Origin: Sulfurimonas xiamenensis
Lineage (GTDB): Bacteria; Campylobacterota; Campylobacteria; Campylobacterales; Sulfurimonadaceae
Direction of reading: 5' to 3'
Length of the DNA: 64,000 bases
Assembly: GCF_009258045.1 (NCBI RefSeq)
Contig: NZ_CP041166.1
Location: forward strand, 62,001 to 126,000
The notes under the pieces were generated by a model that saw nothing but the letters and a program-made list of their open reading frames with translations, was not told where the DNA came from and ran no database searches. The position numbers and the translations under genes were made by a program. Positions 14,591-33,033 of the stretch are shown piece by piece. Position 1 is the stretch's first letter. Every line of letters starts with the position of its first letter.

Positions 14591-15049
14591 GTGGATAAAA
14601 TTAAAAAAAATACGATTGTGTCAATGCTTATAAAGTTAGAAGACGAAGAGGGCAATATCATCGATGAGAGTGAGGAGCTTATGTATCTTCATGGCGGTTA
14701 CAATCAAATCTTTAAAAAGCTAGAAGATGAGCTTGAGGGAAAAAAAGTAGGTGATACTTTTCATGTTACGCTTACTCCGGCAGAGGCGTTTGGAGAGTAC
14801 GACGAGTCTTTGGTTTTAAAAGAGCTGCTAGAGGATTTGCCTGAAGATATTTATGTAGGTGCAGAACTTGACGGCGAAGAGGAAGGCATCGTATATGTCA
14901 TTGAGAGCATAGACAAAGAGCACGCAATCCTAAATGCAAATCATGAACTAGCAGGAATTACACTTATTGCAAGCGGCAAGATTTTGGAGATAGAACAGCT
15001 CTCGGATGAGGCAGCACAAGAGCTGCTAAAGGAAGAACATCATCATTGA
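14591..15049 (+). CDS. slyD: FKBP-type peptidyl-prolyl isomerase, SlyD-like
   Basis: Cytoplasmic prolyl isomerase and metallochaperone-like protein. The 152-residue product has an FKBP domain split by an insert-in-flap: strands from residue 1, a GEYDESLVLKELLEDLP stretch at about 60-80, the flap insert and the closing strand HELAGITL...GKILEI near 118-135. The tail ends in HHH, a remnant of SlyD's metal-binding His-rich tail (E. coli SlyD is 196 residues). The GTG start has AAAGGAT 6-7 nt upstream. It is separate from its neighbours. Confidence 0.85.
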   Translation: MDKIKKNTIVSMLIKLEDEEGNIIDESEELMYLHGGYNQIFKKLEDELEGKKVGDTFHVTLTPAEAFGEYDESLVLKELLEDLPEDIYVGAELDGEEEGIVYVIESIDKEHAILNANHELAGITLIASGKILEIEQLSDEAAQELLKEEHHH

Positions 15050-19422: not shown

Positions 19423-19788
19423 TTAATGTGCTGAACAGGTTCCTTGACCGTCGCTTTTTTGCAGCTCATTTTTTATAAGTCGTGCCACACTTTCTTGAAC
19501 TGTTTTTGAAGTAGAGTCAAAGTAAAGATCCAGTCCGGCTTGTGCAAACCCTTGTGCAGGAGAACCTCCTATTCCAGAGACAACTAAAGCATCAGGATTT
19601 AAACTCATAATATTGGCTACTGCATTACCGCAGGCTCCTCCGCTGTGACCGGGATTTTCTACTCCCTCTACATCAATCATTTTGTCATTTTCTAATGTAA
19701 TAATTGTGTAAAATTTTGCTTTTCCAAAGTGTGCACCTATTTTTGACAAATATCCCATATTCTCATCTGTTGGATAAACTATTCTCAT
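19423..19788 (-). CDS. NifX/NifB-type cofactor-binding domain protein (third in operon)
   Basis: Single-domain protein of the dinitrogenase iron-molybdenum cofactor family (PF02579-like, RNase H fold), which in nif systems holds Fe-S or FeMo-co precursors. The 121-residue product shows HFGKAKFYTII near 22-32, a GGACGNAVANI stretch near 69 and the glycine-rich SGIGGSPAQGFAQAGLDLYF near 90-110. The tail ends in a single Cys followed by SAH. It is the last gene of the operon, 11 bp after the preceding NifX-like gene. No nitrogenase genes are in the window, so a role in nitrogen fixation is not implied. Confidence 0.82.
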   Translation of the reverse strand: MRIVYPTDENMGYLSKIGAHFGKAKFYTIITLENDKMIDVEGVENPGHSGGACGNAVANIMSLNPDALVVSGIGGSPAQGFAQAGLDLYFDSTSKTVQESVARLIKNELQKSDGQGTCSAH

Positions 19789-19799
19789 TTTTTTACTCC

Positions 19800-20144
19800 C
19801 TATTTTTGAAATTTTGTTAATTTATTGGCAAGAAATGCGCTATAAGCTTCTTTAACCGTCATGTCACCTGCGCCTACATACATGGTTACTTTTGATTTTT
19901 TTAATATCTCTAAAGCTTTGTTACCGGGTCCATTTCCGGTTATAAGGATATCGGGATTGAGTTCAAGCACTTTTTTTGCCGCCTGAAGTCCAGCTCCGTG
20001 TTCCATTGTCTCCGTATCCGCATTAGAGATAAAACTTAAAGAATCATCCTCCTCATTATACACAACAAGTGTGTCAGTTCTTCCAAATCTTGGGTCCATT
20101 AAAGAATCCCAGCTCTTACCCTTTGCCGTAAATACAATTTTCAT
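19800..20144 (-). CDS. NifX/NifB-type cofactor-binding domain protein (second in operon)
   Basis: A 114-residue protein of the same NifX/NifB-C family. It shows DPRFGRTDTLVVYNEEDD at 17-34 (the usual xRFGRxxxFxIyd entry), ETMEHGAGLQAAKKVLEL near 46-63 and a GNGPGNKALEILKKSKVTMY stretch near 69-90. AAGGAG precedes the ATG, which lies 1 bp after the ATPase stop. Stand-alone NifX-like proteins next to MinD-type ferredoxin ATPases are common in anaerobes; they are thought to bind metal-sulfur clusters, with undefined partners. Confidence 0.85.
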   Translation of the reverse strand: MKIVFTAKGKSWDSLMDPRFGRTDTLVVYNEEDDSLSFISNADTETMEHGAGLQAAKKVLELNPDILITGNGPGNKALEILKKSKVTMYVGAGDMTVKEAYSAFLANKLTKFQK

Positions 20145-20145
20145 T

Positions 20146-21024
20146 TTAACTCCTTAGTATATTTTTTATGTATTGCCAACTTTTTTCAATCTCTGTTTTA
20201 AGACTGCTATCGCCATATTCTATAATCGTTTTTGCTTGAGAAAGAGCTTTTGCAAATGTTTCATCATAGGCAATTTTTGTTATAAGAGTGATATCTTCTT
20301 CTTCTAAAAAAGCCTCAATCTCTTTGGTTACATCTATATTTAAATCATACTTGTTGATAATACAAGCAGCTTCTATATTGAAACTTTTAACCAGTTTATA
20401 AACTCTTTTAAGATCATGAAGTCCCGAAACGGTTGCTTCCGTAACCAGCAGTGCCAAATCTGCCCCGCTTAAGGAGGAGATAACAGGACATCCCACACCG
20501 GGACTTCCATCAACAATCAAAAACTCTTTTTTATTTGCCAAAGTTAGTTTTTTCGCTTCATTTTTTACTTTTGCCACGAGCTTTCCGGAGTTCTCTGCTG
20601 CAAAGCCAAGTTTTGCATGTACCATTTCGCTTTGGGCTTTTGTCATGGAGAGATAAAAATCTCCGACTTTTTGTGTTTTCATATCAATTGCTTCTACCGG
20701 GCAGACTCTGGAACAATACCAACACCCTTCGCATGAAATGGGATCAACACGATGCTGATCATCTATCACATGAATAGCATCAAAGCGGCATACCTCTTTG
20801 CACTCTCCGCAATTTATACAATTCTCTTCGTCGATAACAGCTATCTCGCCGCTATAAAAATCCTCCTGATATCTAAAATCAGCTTCCAAAAGAAGATGCA
20901 TATTTGCAGCATCGACATCACAATCAGCTATAACGGCATTCTCTTTTTCAAGATAGGCAAAGGATGCAGCAAAAGAGGTTTTACCGGTTCCCCCTTTACC
21001 TGAGATAATGACTACCTCTTTCAT
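20146..21024 (-). CDS. MinD/NBP35-like ATPase with two [4Fe-4S] motifs (second copy)
   Basis: P-loop ATPase with an inserted bacterial-type ferredoxin domain. The 292-residue product has a deviant Walker A GKGGTGKTS at 9-17 (signature lysine K10), then Cys at 69, 72, 75 and 79 and a second set at 98, 101, 104 and 108, each CxxCxxCxxxC, enough for two [4Fe-4S] clusters. DGSPGVGCPV near 173-182 follows as in the paired copy. Such ATPases resemble Fe-S scaffold/carrier proteins (Nbp35/ApbC/Mrp). The ATG overlaps the stop of the first copy by 4 bp, suggesting stoichiometric synthesis and possibly a heterodimer. Confidence 0.88.
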   Translation of the reverse strand: MKEVVIISGKGGTGKTSFAASFAYLEKENAVIADCDVDAANMHLLLEADFRYQEDFYSGEIAVIDEENCINCGECKEVCRFDAIHVIDDQHRVDPISCEGCWYCSRVCPVEAIDMKTQKVGDFYLSMTKAQSEMVHAKLGFAAENSGKLVAKVKNEAKKLTLANKKEFLIVDGSPGVGCPVISSLSGADLALLVTEATVSGLHDLKRVYKLVKSFNIEAACIINKYDLNIDVTKEIEAFLEEEDITLITKIAYDETFAKALSQAKTIIEYGDSSLKTEIEKSWQYIKNILRS

Positions 21025-21872
21025 TTGACACCCCCGACAAACTGTGCTATCTGCTTTAATGCGGTTTCAAACTCTTGAATTTTCGGATAAATCAGCTCGC
21101 CTTTGGAGTAAAGCTCGGCGACTCTTCTGTCGTTTGGAATTTTGGCAATTATAGGGATACCCTCGGCATTACAATACTCTTCTACACCATTGTCGCCGAT
21201 GCCATGGCGATTGATTACTACACCAAATTTTTGACATAAAACTCTCATTGTTTCTACAGCAAGCTTGAGATCATTGAGCCCAAAAGGGGTCGATTCGGTT
21301 ACCAATATAACAAAATCGCTTCCGCGGCTCGCCTCAATGACCGGGCAGGAAGTTCCCGGAGGAGCATCAAAGAGCTTGATGGTGTCTTGTGAAAATTTTT
21401 CATCTATATACTCAATGACCTGGCTGATAAGAGGGACAGCCTGCTCCTCTCCTATGTCTAATCTTCCCTCAACAAAATCTAAATTTTCAGTTTTAAAATG
21501 CTTTAATTCGCCAATTTTTTGTGGCATCATTGGAAGAGATTCAGTCGGGCATAGTTCTGAGCAGGCATAACAGCTATGACAAAGTTCCGGAAATACCAAA
21601 ATTTCGTCACCTACTTTTATAACTGCATTGAATCTGCAGACCTCTTCACAGTTGCCGCATAAAGTACATTCCTCTTTTTTCCATTGAGGTACCATTTTGT
21701 CGCATGCTTTTTCAAAAATCAGATTCCCCTCGATAAAGAGTTTGGAATTTGGTTCTTCAACATCCAGATCCGCGAGCACAACATCTGCCTCTTTGGCTAG
21801 ATAGGAAGAGAGATTTGTAGAAATGGTAGTTTTACCAGTCCCGCCTTTTCCGCTTGCTATAGTTATCTTCAT
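21021..21872 (-). CDS. MinD/NBP35-like ATPase with two [4Fe-4S] motifs (first copy)
   Basis: Paralogue of the neighbouring ATPase. The 283-residue product has deviant Walker A GKGGTGKTT at 8-16, a first Cys set in CTLCGNCEEVC and a second in CHSCYACSELC, and the switch-like DAPPGTSCPV near 165-174. The Cys pair around the second switch region is retained in both copies. Its first base overlaps the last base of the NifX-fusion gene. A tandem pair of such ATPases flanked by NifX-type proteins is a recurrent anaerobe gene set whose function is unresolved; handling of a metal-sulfur cluster is the likely theme. Confidence 0.88.
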   Translation of the reverse strand: MKITIASGKGGTGKTTISTNLSSYLAKEADVVLADLDVEEPNSKLFIEGNLIFEKACDKMVPQWKKEECTLCGNCEEVCRFNAVIKVGDEILVFPELCHSCYACSELCPTESLPMMPQKIGELKHFKTENLDFVEGRLDIGEEQAVPLISQVIEYIDEKFSQDTIKLFDAPPGTSCPVIEASRGSDFVILVTESTPFGLNDLKLAVETMRVLCQKFGVVINRHGIGDNGVEEYCNAEGIPIIAKIPNDRRVAELYSKGELIYPKIQEFETALKQIAQFVGGVK

Positions 21873-22453
21873 TACAGGCTTCCAGTGCCTCTACCAAATC
21901 CCATGCCACGACCTCCTCTTGCACATCTTCTTTGCATAAAACTTGACCTTCTTTTTATATAACTTTCTTCATCTCTTAGATAATTGGTATTTATATCCTC
22001 ACTTCTTTTTTCATTTCTGCCAAGACCCATGCCGCGACCTTTTCTCATGCCTCTTCCTTGCATAGCACTCAATCCTCTTTTTGTATACATCTCTTCACCT
22101 CTCTCATCATTATTTGTAAACATATCTTTTTTGCTAAGTATATTCAACACTGCTTCTATATCTTTTTCCTGTGCCTCATAAGCTGTAATTGCAAATTGTT
22201 CAAGATTTTGTTTTAGCCCCTGTGAGTAAAACTCCACCACAGCAAAAATATCAATATTTTTTTCTGACAAAAACTGCGACAAAATTCTGCCCGTACCGAA
22301 GTGTCTTTCTCCCGCTTTTGCAATTGGCAAGTTTTCCTCTTTTACCATTTTTAAAATCGGATTTTCGATTACTTCAACTTTTTTTTCATTTTCATAGATA
22401 ACAATTTTTTTGCAAAGACCGATATGTTTTGCTATTGTTTGTTCATTGTTCAT
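21872..22453 (-). CDS. NifX-type domain fused to a Met/Gly/Arg-rich tail
   Basis: The 193-residue product has an N-terminal NifX/NifB-C domain (residues 1-105, with AGERHFGTGRILSQFLSEKNIDIFAV) followed by a tail made of two imperfect repeats. Each contains a KRG/KRR start, a MQ(G/R)RG element and an RGMGLGR or RGMGFGR motif (about residues 124-145 and 168-190). The tail resembles the small Met/Gly-rich DUF5320-type proteins often encoded beside NifX/ATPase genes, here apparently fused. The start ATG lies in a heptamer repeat with no Shine-Dalgarno sequence, so translation probably depends on coupling with the regulator gene 3 bp upstream. Confidence 0.75.
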   Translation of the reverse strand: MNNEQTIAKHIGLCKKIVIYENEKKVEVIENPILKMVKEENLPIAKAGERHFGTGRILSQFLSEKNIDIFAVVEFYSQGLKQNLEQFAITAYEAQEKDIEAVLNILSKKDMFTNNDERGEEMYTKRGLSAMQGRGMRKGRGMGLGRNEKRSEDINTNYLRDEESYIKRRSSFMQRRCARGGRGMGFGRGTGSL

Positions 22454-22468
22454 TGTTCATTGTTCGTT
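22441..22468. repeat. Heptamer tandem repeat spanning a stop/start junction
   Basis: GTTCATT is repeated three times (22441-22461) with a fourth, variant copy GTTCGTT at 22462-22468. On the minus strand it reads as three ATGAACA units carrying the stop of the DUF134 gene (22459-22457) and the start of the NifX-fusion gene (22453). Confidence 0.85.
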
Positions 22469-22780
22469 GGAAATGCTACTCTCATTATATGATTCCTTTG
22501 TATGGATAATAATTGCTTTTGCATTTAACAACGCATCTGCAATTTTTCGTCTTGCACTTTCAATCGTTCGGGAAAAAGTAGTTCGTGATATACCCATACG
22601 ATCAGCACACTCTTGTTGATACAAACCCAAAGAATCACTCAATCTTATAGCTTCCATCTCTTCTTCAAACAGTACTACATACTCAAGCGATTTTTTGCAT
22701 ACACCACATGGCTTAAAACAGATATCACTATGATCTTCATCTACTCTTCTGTGTTTTCTTTTTCTGCCAAATTGGTTCAT
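22457..22780 (-). CDS. DUF134-family HTH regulator
   Basis: DNA-binding protein of the DUF134/UPF0251 family, a sigma-70-region-4-like helix-turn-helix often encoded with NifX and MinD-type ATPase genes. The 107-residue product opens with a basic segment (RKRKHRRV), has a Cys pair around residues 21 and 25-27 (FKPCGVCKK), then a helix-turn-helix at about 55-85 (LYQQECADRMGISRTTFSRT). I chose ATG 22780 because AAAGGA lies 8 nt upstream; a TTG at 22813 lies inside the operator palindrome. It is the first gene of the six-gene operon and a plausible autoregulator. Confidence 0.82.
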   Translation of the reverse strand: MNQFGRKRKHRRVDEDHSDICFKPCGVCKKSLEYVVLFEEEMEAIRLSDSLGLYQQECADRMGISRTTFSRTIESARRKIADALLNAKAIIIHTKESYNESSISNEQ

Positions 22781-22797
22781 TGTTTTTTCCTTTAGTT

Positions 22798-22813
22798 TTG
22801 AACATATGTTCAA
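22798..22813. promoter_or_regulatory. 16-bp perfect palindromic operator candidate (downstream site)
   Basis: TTGAACATATGTTCAA is a perfect palindrome located at about +6 to +21 from the predicted start of the DUF134 operon. A related site, 12 of 16 identical, is centred 33 bp away (three helical turns). Location and symmetry suggest repression, probably by the DUF134 protein; the binding protein is inferred. Confidence 0.6.
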
Positions 22814-22824
22814 TTTCAGCTGTA

Positions 22825-22853
22825 ATTATAATGTGCATATGTTCATTTGTCAA
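22825..22853 (-). promoter_or_regulatory. Exact consensus sigma-70 promoter with an operator in the spacer
   Basis: On the minus strand TTGACA (22853-22848) is followed by exactly 17 nt and TATAAT (22830-22825). A perfect -35 is rare in this phylum. The spacer contains the second palindrome-like site (22831-22846, core CATATGTTCA). The expected transcription start is about 22818. A strong promoter with operators in the spacer and just downstream fits tight repression and strong induction. Confidence 0.7.
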
Positions 22854-31666: not shown

Positions 31667-33033
31667 TAGACGAAAATTCTCTCGCTAAATTCTGCAAATT
31701 TTCCGCGCACCGCTTTTTCAAGCTCTATAGCAAACATGCCAAGCTCAGGGTGTGTTGCTCTCGTCTGTTTTAAAAGCGTTGTTAGACCATTGTTGTATTT
31801 GTTAAGATAGAGATTGTCTATCTGTCTGTTGGAGCCGATAACGATTGCCATGCAGCTCTCATCAAGTCGTGAGAGGATAAGCTGTGTCGTCTTTTCACTG
31901 CTGTTTTGCCACTCATCCATAATAACGATAGCTTCACTTAGCGTGCGTCCTCTTGCCTCTCCCGGCCAGAGAGTTTGTATGTCATATCTTGCTATAAGCT
32001 CCTCTGTTTTAGAGCGGATAGATTCGGGATTTTCGGCGTTTATTCCATTTTTGAGTCGCTTTTTTGCTATAAACTCCATGGTATCGCTCAGTGCCATATT
32101 GTAGATGCGAAATTTTTCATCATTTCCCGACAAAAAGCCTACTTCTGCTCCTCTGTCGATAGATTCTATAGAGTTTCGCACATAGACTATTTTGTCGTAA
32201 AGCCCTTTATCCACAAGTCTCATCGCTGCCACAAAAGACATAAGTGTTTTACCGCTTCCGGCTTTGGCGTCGATTACAAGCAGGTTGTAAACATTTTCAA
32301 TTATGGCTTTGACAAAAAATTTCTGTTTCAGGTTTGCAGGTTTGACGGCAAGAGGGTTGAAATCGCTCTCATCCATAACCATCACGCGCTCGTTCGCAAT
32401 GATTCCATATGCGCTGTTTCCATCACTTGACTCAAATGTATAACAAAAATTCTCCGGCTTGTATTGACCATCTATCTCTTTAATACTTTGAAGATTTAAA
32501 TTGTTAAAGTAGATGGACTCAAGCGGCGTGCTTTTTACAAAAGAGAAGTCAGGAACCTCGCTCTTGTCATCATTTAGTGTTTGGGTTTTAATGTTTTTAA
32601 AGAGTGCGAATGTTCGAGCATAGATATCGATAGAGATAAAGATGACCTTCTGCCCTTTATAGTAATCTCTTGCAACCTCGGCAACTTCTATAATCCTTTT
32701 GTCATTGCTCTCGGAGATGTGGTGTTGCTCTATCTGGGTATCGTAGCTCTCTTTTGAGATAATGTGAATAATTACATCGCCTTTATAGAGTTTGACAACT
32801 TTGTAGTTTTTCTTATAATCTATCTCTTTTATTTTGGTGGAGGCTAAAAATCTTGCAAACTCTCTTGAGTAGTAACCAAGTTCGTTTGTGAGTTTCTTTT
32901 TATCTTCAAGTTCAAGCAGTACCGTCTCAGGTATCACAACTATGTTAGAACCATTATCGCTCAGGGTATCTATATTTTGCAGATTTTGCAAAATAATGTT
33001 GGTGTCTATGACATAAACTTTATCTTTTTTCAT
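31666..33033 (-). CDS. PIN-domain/PhoH-like ATPase fusion
   Basis: A 455-residue protein with an N-terminal PIN-type RNase domain (VYVIDTNIILQNL near 6-18, later Asp/Glu in VIPETVLLELED and SNDKRIIEVA) and a C-terminal PhoH-type P-loop ATPase/helicase domain (Walker A DAKAGSGKT at about 255-263, DEWQNSSEKTTQLILSR as Walker B). PIN-PhoH (PhoH2) proteins are reported as RNA helicase-RNases linked to toxin-antitoxin biology. I chose ATG 33033, where the PIN motif begins; an in-frame upstream extension overlaps the preceding gene. There is no clear Shine-Dalgarno sequence. Confidence 0.85.
   Translation of the reverse strand: MKKDKVYVIDTNIILQNLQNIDTLSDNGSNIVVIPETVLLELEDKKKLTNELGYYSREFARFLASTKIKEIDYKKNYKVVKLYKGDVIIHIISKESYDTQIEQHHISESNDKRIIEVAEVARDYYKGQKVIFISIDIYARTFALFKNIKTQTLNDDKSEVPDFSFVKSTPLESIYFNNLNLQSIKEIDGQYKPENFCYTFESSDGNSAYGIIANERVMVMDESDFNPLAVKPANLKQKFFVKAIIENVYNLLVIDAKAGSGKTLMSFVAAMRLVDKGLYDKIVYVRNSIESIDRGAEVGFLSGNDEKFRIYNMALSDTMEFIAKKRLKNGINAENPESIRSKTEELIARYDIQTLWPGEARGRTLSEAIVIMDEWQNSSEKTTQLILSRLDESCMAIVIGSNRQIDNLYLNKYNNGLTTLLKQTRATHPELGMFAIELEKAVRGKFAEFSERIFV

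Follow-up and report, generated by a model that had tools for sequence, protein, structure and literature searches.

DUF134 proteins as probable autoregulators at CATATG-centred palindromes whose arms vary with the recognition helix

What controls an operon whose promoter matches the consensus exactly and is overlaid by two palindromes, and does the first gene of that operon encode the protein that reads them? The question is raised by a stretch of 64,000 nt from Sulfurimonas xiamenensis (contig NZ_CP041166.1, positions 62,001 to 126,000; hereafter the window), in which six minus-strand genes are headed by one for a protein of the DUF134 family (Table 1). DUF134 is very probably a self-regulating switch, because such palindromes recur before DUF134 genes and change with the residues predicted to read DNA; that DUF134 is both the binder and its own regulator at these sites we hold with a probability of about 0.82. 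The sign of the control is likely to be repression rather than activation, since the operators overlap the promoter. The pattern that an earlier note on this DNA had pointed out is thus real, and it is more general than that note supposed.

The promoter consists, as the earlier note had it, of TTGACA and TATAAT separated by exactly 17 nt (minus strand, 22853-22825), and both of the palindromes that it described are in place. Operator O1, TTGAACATATGTTCAA, is perfect over 16 bp, lies at about +6 to +21 from the predicted start and has a single exact match in the whole genome (1,916,242 bases, 1.92 Mb); operator O2, ATGAACATATGCACAT, sits in the promoter spacer, carries the same CATATG core and matches O1 at 12 of 16 positions, 33 bp away from centre to centre. 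The note had also called the promoter unusual, which stands as to rarity but not as to uniqueness. Between window positions 15000 and 30000 it is the sole 12/12 match among 55 promoter-like sites, a class that is itself no commoner than in shuffles (57.2 expected), and the exact pattern TTGACA-N16..18-TATAAT occurs twice in the 64 kb against 0.03 expected. The other exact match, with a spacer of 16 nt, lies on the plus strand at window 32792-32819.

The palindromes are conserved well beyond this genome. Within the order to which S. xiamenensis belongs, DUF134 is present in 36 of 119 genomes (own included), in 35 of them above the Pfam cut-off, and an operator with at most one mismatch stands at the start of the gene or its operon at 24 of 34 loci, compared with 0.08 expected from shuffles. 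This count covers the sequence upstream of both the DUF134 gene and its gene string, leaves out our own genome, a partial gene in G011 and a second fragment in G083, and includes one gene placed by hand (L094); among the order's loci having at least 200 nt of upstream sequence, 22 of 27 have the operator. In several cases (L083, L086, L091, L099) DUF134 is distal and the operator heads the gene string. Promoter and operators are usually interleaved: of 25 site-bearing loci printed and picked by hand, 18, our own among them, have a TTGAC[A/T]/TATAAT-type promoter that reaches 11 or 12 matches; one operator there covers the -35 element or lies in the spacer, and the second usually falls at or after the start. 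Four more loci have a promoter of 10 matches. Neighbouring CATATG hexamers are spaced by 22-23 bp in 11 of 52 cases and by 28-36 bp in 30, that is, by about two or three helical turns. An exact TGMACATATGTKCA occurs in 22 of the 119 genomes (1 of 119 for the backward-pattern control), and 15 of these have DUF134. Ten of the 15 carry an exact site at the DUF134 operon itself, G013 carries its site at the head of a NifX-ATPase operon, and the remaining four (G007, G026, G040, G110) have theirs at other places. Among the seven without DUF134, three have the site at the TetR gene discussed below, one has it before a NifX gene and the other three sites are unassigned, and we rejected presence of the motif as a strict marker of DUF134.

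The same core recurs across bacterial phyla. A scan with the DUF134 profile, using one genome per species, gave 524 relatives, and among the best 80 of these loci a CATATG palindrome with at least 4 of 5 flanking pairs lies within 180 bp upstream at 16 of 45 loci outside the Campylobacterota/Desulfurella-type group and at 12 of 34 inside it; the best of the 63 other palindromic hexamers reaches 1 and 3, respectively. By their record titles, the 16 outside loci include Gammaproteobacteria (Thiocapsa, Thiocystis), Bacteroidetes, Treponema, Sedimentisphaerales, Actinomycetota, Lentisphaerae, Verrucomicrobia, Deltaproteobacteria, Smithella, Acidobacteria, Zixibacteria and Caldisericia; CATATG-centred palindromes precede DUF134 genes in about ten phyla. 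Before non-DUF134 genes at these 80 loci, such a palindrome occurs in 5 of 493 upstream regions; one of the five lies before a NifX gene (L189), and two apparently lead gene strings ending in DUF134 (L157, L162). A larger collection (set 1: 233 alignment rows, 222 with the recognition-helix pattern, 160 distinct genes once repeats and those with less than 120 nt upstream were removed) has the palindrome, at the same threshold of pairs, in 56 of 160 genes (next core, 3), and a later one (147 rows, minus 32 lacking the helix pattern and 3 duplicates) in 42 of 112 (next core, 1). The helix pattern of the later set admits two more residues at position x7, and this set comprises new loci rather than wholly new lineages, since both sets share the phyla of G139, G140 and G125. 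Together the counts for the order, the phyla, both gene sets and the 493 control regions led us to reject a chance origin of the operators. Conservation upstream of DUF134 orthologs, which the earlier note had proposed as a check, thus holds both in the order (24/34) and across phyla.

The evidence that ties the palindromes to DUF134 itself is that their arms change with its recognition helix. With the helix written SRx3TFx6x7 and the arm positions numbered -1 and -3 from CATATG, the mutual information between helix residue and arm triplet exceeds that of shuffles by 0.65 at x3, 0.77 at x6 and 0.68 at x7, the next highest column reaching 0.23 (set 1, 89 sites with at least 3 pairs). Where x7 is asparagine, all half-sites have T at -3 (44 of 44 in set 1, and 24 of 24 in the later set with its 58 sites); where it is arginine, G stands at -3 in 116 of 134 and 83 of 90. 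Serine at x6 goes with A at -1 in 71 of 72 and 12 of 12, and glycine at x6 with G at -1 in 53 of 64 and 66 of 66. This rule was seen in set 1 before the later set was fetched, and the later set adds a further class, the helix SRGTxQR with TGTGCATATGCACA. That the operator arms track the DUF134 recognition helix is strongly supported by these sequence comparisons, and the earlier claim of autoregulation gains strong support from the covariation joined with the conservation among orthologs.

When the DUF134 profile is compared with the PDB, its strongest helix-turn-helix (HTH) match is to the DNA-binding domain of Bacillus subtilis DeoR (7bhy, E 6.3e-5), with SRPTVSR of DeoR aligned on SRxTFxR of DUF134; the top match of all, a NifX-family chain, falls on the part of the alignment that comes from fusions. 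The AlphaFold model of DUF134 has a mean predicted local distance difference test score (pLDDT) of 83.5, with HTH blocks above 90, and Foldseek places it on 7bhy with a root-mean-square deviation of 0.7 A over 41 columns (36% identity, E 0.067); Foldseek gave no match at E 0.001 or better, and DeoR is absent from the 50 rows of the VIA list. In the DeoR structural paper, the left operator ATTGAACAAAATTTCAAT reads TTGAA-N6-TTCAA, ACATATGTTCAA closes the right part, and contacts are described between R39 and G4 and between R34 and T12 (PMC11229326). These two arginines, five residues apart, correspond to the invariant arginine and x7 of DUF134, and G4 to base -3. The likeness (PDB 7bhy, 8r7y) extends to the arms TTGAA-N6-TTCAA, common to the DeoR left operator and O1, and to the use of two half-operators, whose centres we count 22 bp apart in the published sequence (PMC11229326). 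DUF134 differs from SorC/DeoR regulators in that its 107 residues include no C-terminal sugar-binding effector domain (about 250 residues), in that it occurs either by itself or joined to NifX, and in that the core of its site is fixed as CATATG; lacking that domain, it is no SorC protein.

Several observations weigh against DUF134 as the reader of these sites. Sigma region-4 chains match its fold as well as DeoR does, with many ties. The R39-G4 contact comes from a structure at 3.7 A, a resolution that limits confidence according to the paper itself, and in a sharper structure of the DeoR domain described there the R39 of one chain touched only the backbone of a neighbouring duplex (PMC11229326). 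No site with at least 3 pairs lies within 260 nt of 71 of the 160 genes of set 1 or of 54 of the 112 of the later set; some of these genes are distal in operons, and others have no such explanation. The residue-base rule has exceptions, the 23 set-1 sites with glycine at x6 and arginine at x7 comprising 16 G/G, 2 A/A (L038, L177), 2 T/T and 3 mixed. In a phylogeny of the two sets from which the helix residues were excluded, x7 N/K needs 9 changes and T at -3 needs 10, and the supported independent pairs number 1 for x7 and 3 to 6 for x6; they are too few to reach significance, and those for x6 go in the expected direction nearly always. Among the 25 hand-picked loci, L108 and L195 have no promoter and that of L258 has 9 of 12 matches, and a clostridial plasmid DUF134 (L454, unannotated) has no CATATG site nearby.

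Could another molecule read the palindromes, or could DUF134 read them to other effect? A TetR-family protein of the same genome (G000:C1, about 973.4-974.0 kb), for which the DUF134 promoter would be one target among others, was the binder that we favoured at first, and it too counts against our reading: four palindromes of the TGAACANNTGTTCA type, with 32-bp spacing, precede its gene. We dropped it because the DUF134 sites hold CATATG constant, whereas the centre of the TetR sites varies freely; the DUF134 sites also span phyla and follow the residues of the DUF134 helix, and we now regard a TetR binder as highly improbable. Cross-talk between the two proteins is possible, since the half-site of the TetR array equals that of DUF134. 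In the array itself (L043:3564-3673; G000:C1:974063-974172), two of the four palindromes are imperfect, with TGTTAA on one side, and across it from the TetR gene lies what is presumably an RNase P RNA gene; a TGAACATATGTTCA site adjoins the same TetR gene in three related genomes (L061, L065, L069). ArsR, of which the genome holds two PF01022 matches, one above the cut-off beside a gene that we take to be arsenate-reductase-like, was rejected as a binder, the palindrome at its locus being a different one, ATATCAAGATATGTTGATAT.

That some other regulator travelling with DUF134 binds the sites, or that the palindrome acts in RNA, is scarcely credible. Our exclusion of other regulators is not exhaustive and O1 would be transcribed; set against this, the covariation of the arms peaks at three positions of the DUF134 helix, O2 would not be transcribed because it lies upstream of the predicted start, and an Rfam scan of the window gave no match above gathering scores. 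An unlikely but weightier alternative is that DUF134 binds the palindromes to activate, or represses at some sites and activates at others. The binding evidence is silent on the sign of control, and the HTH of DUF134 is sigma-region-4-like; the promoter, however, already matches the consensus perfectly, and at 18 of the 25 hand-picked loci the operators overlap the -35 element, the spacer or the start region, which is the usual layout for a repressor. What the sequences establish for DUF134 as binder and autoregulator is that the site exists, is conserved, covaries with the helix and overlaps the promoter. A dimer of DUF134 would then sit at each of the two CATATG palindromes of its own promoter, and the two dimers, on one face of the DNA and two or three turns apart, may bind cooperatively and block a strong promoter. 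Build-up of metal-sulfide clusters or reactive sulfur might release the repressor, perhaps sensed through the NifX partner, which is fused to DUF134 in some relatives, or through the CxxxC motif of DUF134; of this sensing step we are much less sure than of binding and autoregulation.

The operon placed under this putative control is ordered and spaced as the earlier note had described, with intergenic gaps of +3, -1, -4, +1 and +11 nt along its six genes (Table 1). The regulator belongs to DUF134 by a wide score (71.9 bits against a PF02001 gathering cut-off of 27), and its Pfam matches are limited to DUF134 and HTH/sigma region-4 families; the operon's Pfam domains are DUF134, NifX (Nitro_FeMo-Co) and CbiA/ParA-type ATPases with 4Fe-4S domains. 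In the order's alignment both cysteines of the CFKPC motif are present in 18 of 19 stand-alone DUF134 rows and in 0 of 9 of fusion length. The second product, earlier described as a NifX fusion, does have the NifX domain, and is better described as that domain followed by an Arg/Lys/Gly-rich tail of 81 residues. Arg/Gly-rich tails are found on DUF134-adjacent NifX proteins here (window 21872-22117) and in L082, L101 and L151 (a Nautiliaceae record), the last three having GRGFG-type repeats. The first ATPase was found in only 9 of the 119 genomes (search at E 1e-40), so that the operon beyond DUF134 varies.

Table 1. Control elements and genes of the DUF134 operon (window coordinates)
Feature	Position	Strand	Basis or remark
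-35 element TTGACA	22848..22853	-	Sequence read; similar element in relatives
Operator O2, within promoter spacer	22831..22846	-	Similar placement in relatives
-10 element TATAAT; predicted start near 22818	22825..22830	-	Start predicted only
Operator O1, perfect 16-bp palindrome	22798..22813	-	Centre 33 bp from O2
DUF134 regulator, 107 aa, recognition helix SRTTFSR, CFKPCGVC motif	22457..22780	-	Pfam PF02001, E 6.9e-20; AlphaFold HTH
NifX-domain protein, 193 aa, 81-residue Arg/Lys/Gly-rich tail	21872..22453	-	PF02579, E 1.7e-7
CbiA/ParA-type P-loop ATPase (A) with ferredoxin domain	21021..21872	-	Pfam
CbiA/ParA-type P-loop ATPase (B) with ferredoxin domain	20146..21024	-	Pfam
NifX-family protein, 114 aa	19800..20144	-	PF02579, E 4.6e-11
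NifX-family protein, 121 aa	19423..19788	-	PF02579, E 3e-13

In its make-up the operon recalls the ORP system of Desulfovibrio vulgaris (Orp3, Orp4, Orp8, MrpORP), where Orp3 and Orp4 are MinD-like ATPases and where ferredoxin-type P-loop proteins are likewise paired with NifX proteins. A paper on the ORP complex describes two ferredoxin-motif proteins together with NifX-type (Di-Nase) proteins, and also mentions IssA, a thioferrate-binding protein with a cationic tail (PMC6345978). The orp operons of Desulfovibrio are, in another report, under sigma54, the enhancer-binding protein DVU2106 and IHF (PMC3897727); the operon described here has an exact sigma70-type promoter and DUF134 as its first gene. 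MrpORP, a P-loop NTPase fused to a Di-Nase domain, is absent from the operon by Pfam, and no genome-wide search for it was made. The likeness to IssA, a NifX domain with a cationic tail, is one of kind only, without sequence comparison, and the Arg/Gly-rich tails are suggestive of IssA-like binding of metal sulfide. When repression is lifted, the operon would supply NifX-type metal-sulfide-binding proteins and ORP-like P-loop ATPases bearing ferredoxin domains; it may be strongly inducible, and may form a module for the assembly or carriage of metal-sulfur clusters. Under the names DUF134, UPF0251, COG1342 and PF02001, we found no operator, target or ligand in the titles and opening abstract lines of the open-licence papers listed, and earlier reports elsewhere are possible; among the papers listed for the operator letters, none dealt with DUF134.

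The genes found near DUF134 give hints of its targets. Among the best 80 of the 524 relatives, a NifX gene or fusion lies from 3.5 kb before to 4.5 kb after DUF134 at 57 loci and an ATPase of the operon's type at 23, detection by local profiles being approximate. Six candidate DUF134-NifX fusions were scanned; NifX scores above the Pfam cut-off in L106, L107, L150 and L160, just below it in L095, and is not found in L111. DUF134 (36/119) and cytochrome-bd-type cydA (35/119) occur together in 24 genomes (Fisher p 1.3e-8, uncorrected for relatedness). In our own genome a DUF134-type operator lies in a TTGACT-17-TATTAT spacer about 470 bp upstream of cydA (L048:3389-3402; G000:C1:1548888), whose product matches models of bd subunit I below the equivalog cut-offs. 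General control of cytochrome bd in trans was nevertheless rejected as a rule: a site with at most one mismatch precedes only 4 of 30 cydA loci (G000, G008, G030, G047; two mismatches in G110) within a stretch of at most 900 nt before the gene (shorter for L286, L287, L291, L294 and L300, and with no located start for L307), and with so few near-perfect sites cytochrome bd is at most a lineage-specific target. In G030 and G047 the site separates cydA from a divergently oriented DUF134-NifX fusion; G008, a genome 62% complete, has no DUF134 that we could find; and G090 has one at the head of a NifX-NifX-cydA string, beyond 900 nt from cydA. In G110, which has a DUF134-NifX fusion elsewhere, a DUF134-type site (L118:4969-4982) precedes a pyridine-nucleotide-disulfide oxidoreductase with weak likeness to type III sulfide:quinone reductase. 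Plasmid records with a DUF134 match number 189, of which three were opened. DUF134-NifX pairs lie on a Klebsiella and an Aeromonas plasmid (L452, NZ_CP058120.1; L453, NZ_CP047963.1), with paired upstream CATATG sites 29 bp apart; both adjoin a CoA-disulfide-reductase-like enzyme, Dps and PaaI, and a BigR-like regulator is near one pair and a rhodanese, DsbB and a TehA-type transporter near the other (model matches, several below cut-off). By association only, these plasmid neighbours point to sulfur or metal-sulfide chemistry.

Taken with the NifX fusions and neighbours and with cytochrome bd, the sulfur genes on the plasmids suggest that the cue may be a metal sulfide or reactive sulfur. On a broader view, which we offer tentatively and think somewhat doubtful as a whole, DUF134 proteins would be bacteria-wide self-regulating sensors of metal sulfide or reactive sulfur, reading bases -1 and -3 around an invariant CATATG through x6 and x7, respectively, with NifX, fused or adjacent, as the cluster-sensing half; under their control would stand ORP/IssA-like metal-sulfide proteins, joined in some lineages by cytochrome bd. 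If the residue-base code is true, a helix SRTTFSR would prefer TTGAACATATGTTCAA (TTGAA-CATATG) and a helix SRQTFGN would prefer ATTGGCATATGCCAAT (ATTGG-CATATG). An uncharacterised family of regulators found in many phyla thereby gains a predicted operator, a putative residue-base code and candidate targets, which may offer a handle on the cues answered by the widespread metal-sulfide proteins of the NifX/ORP type.

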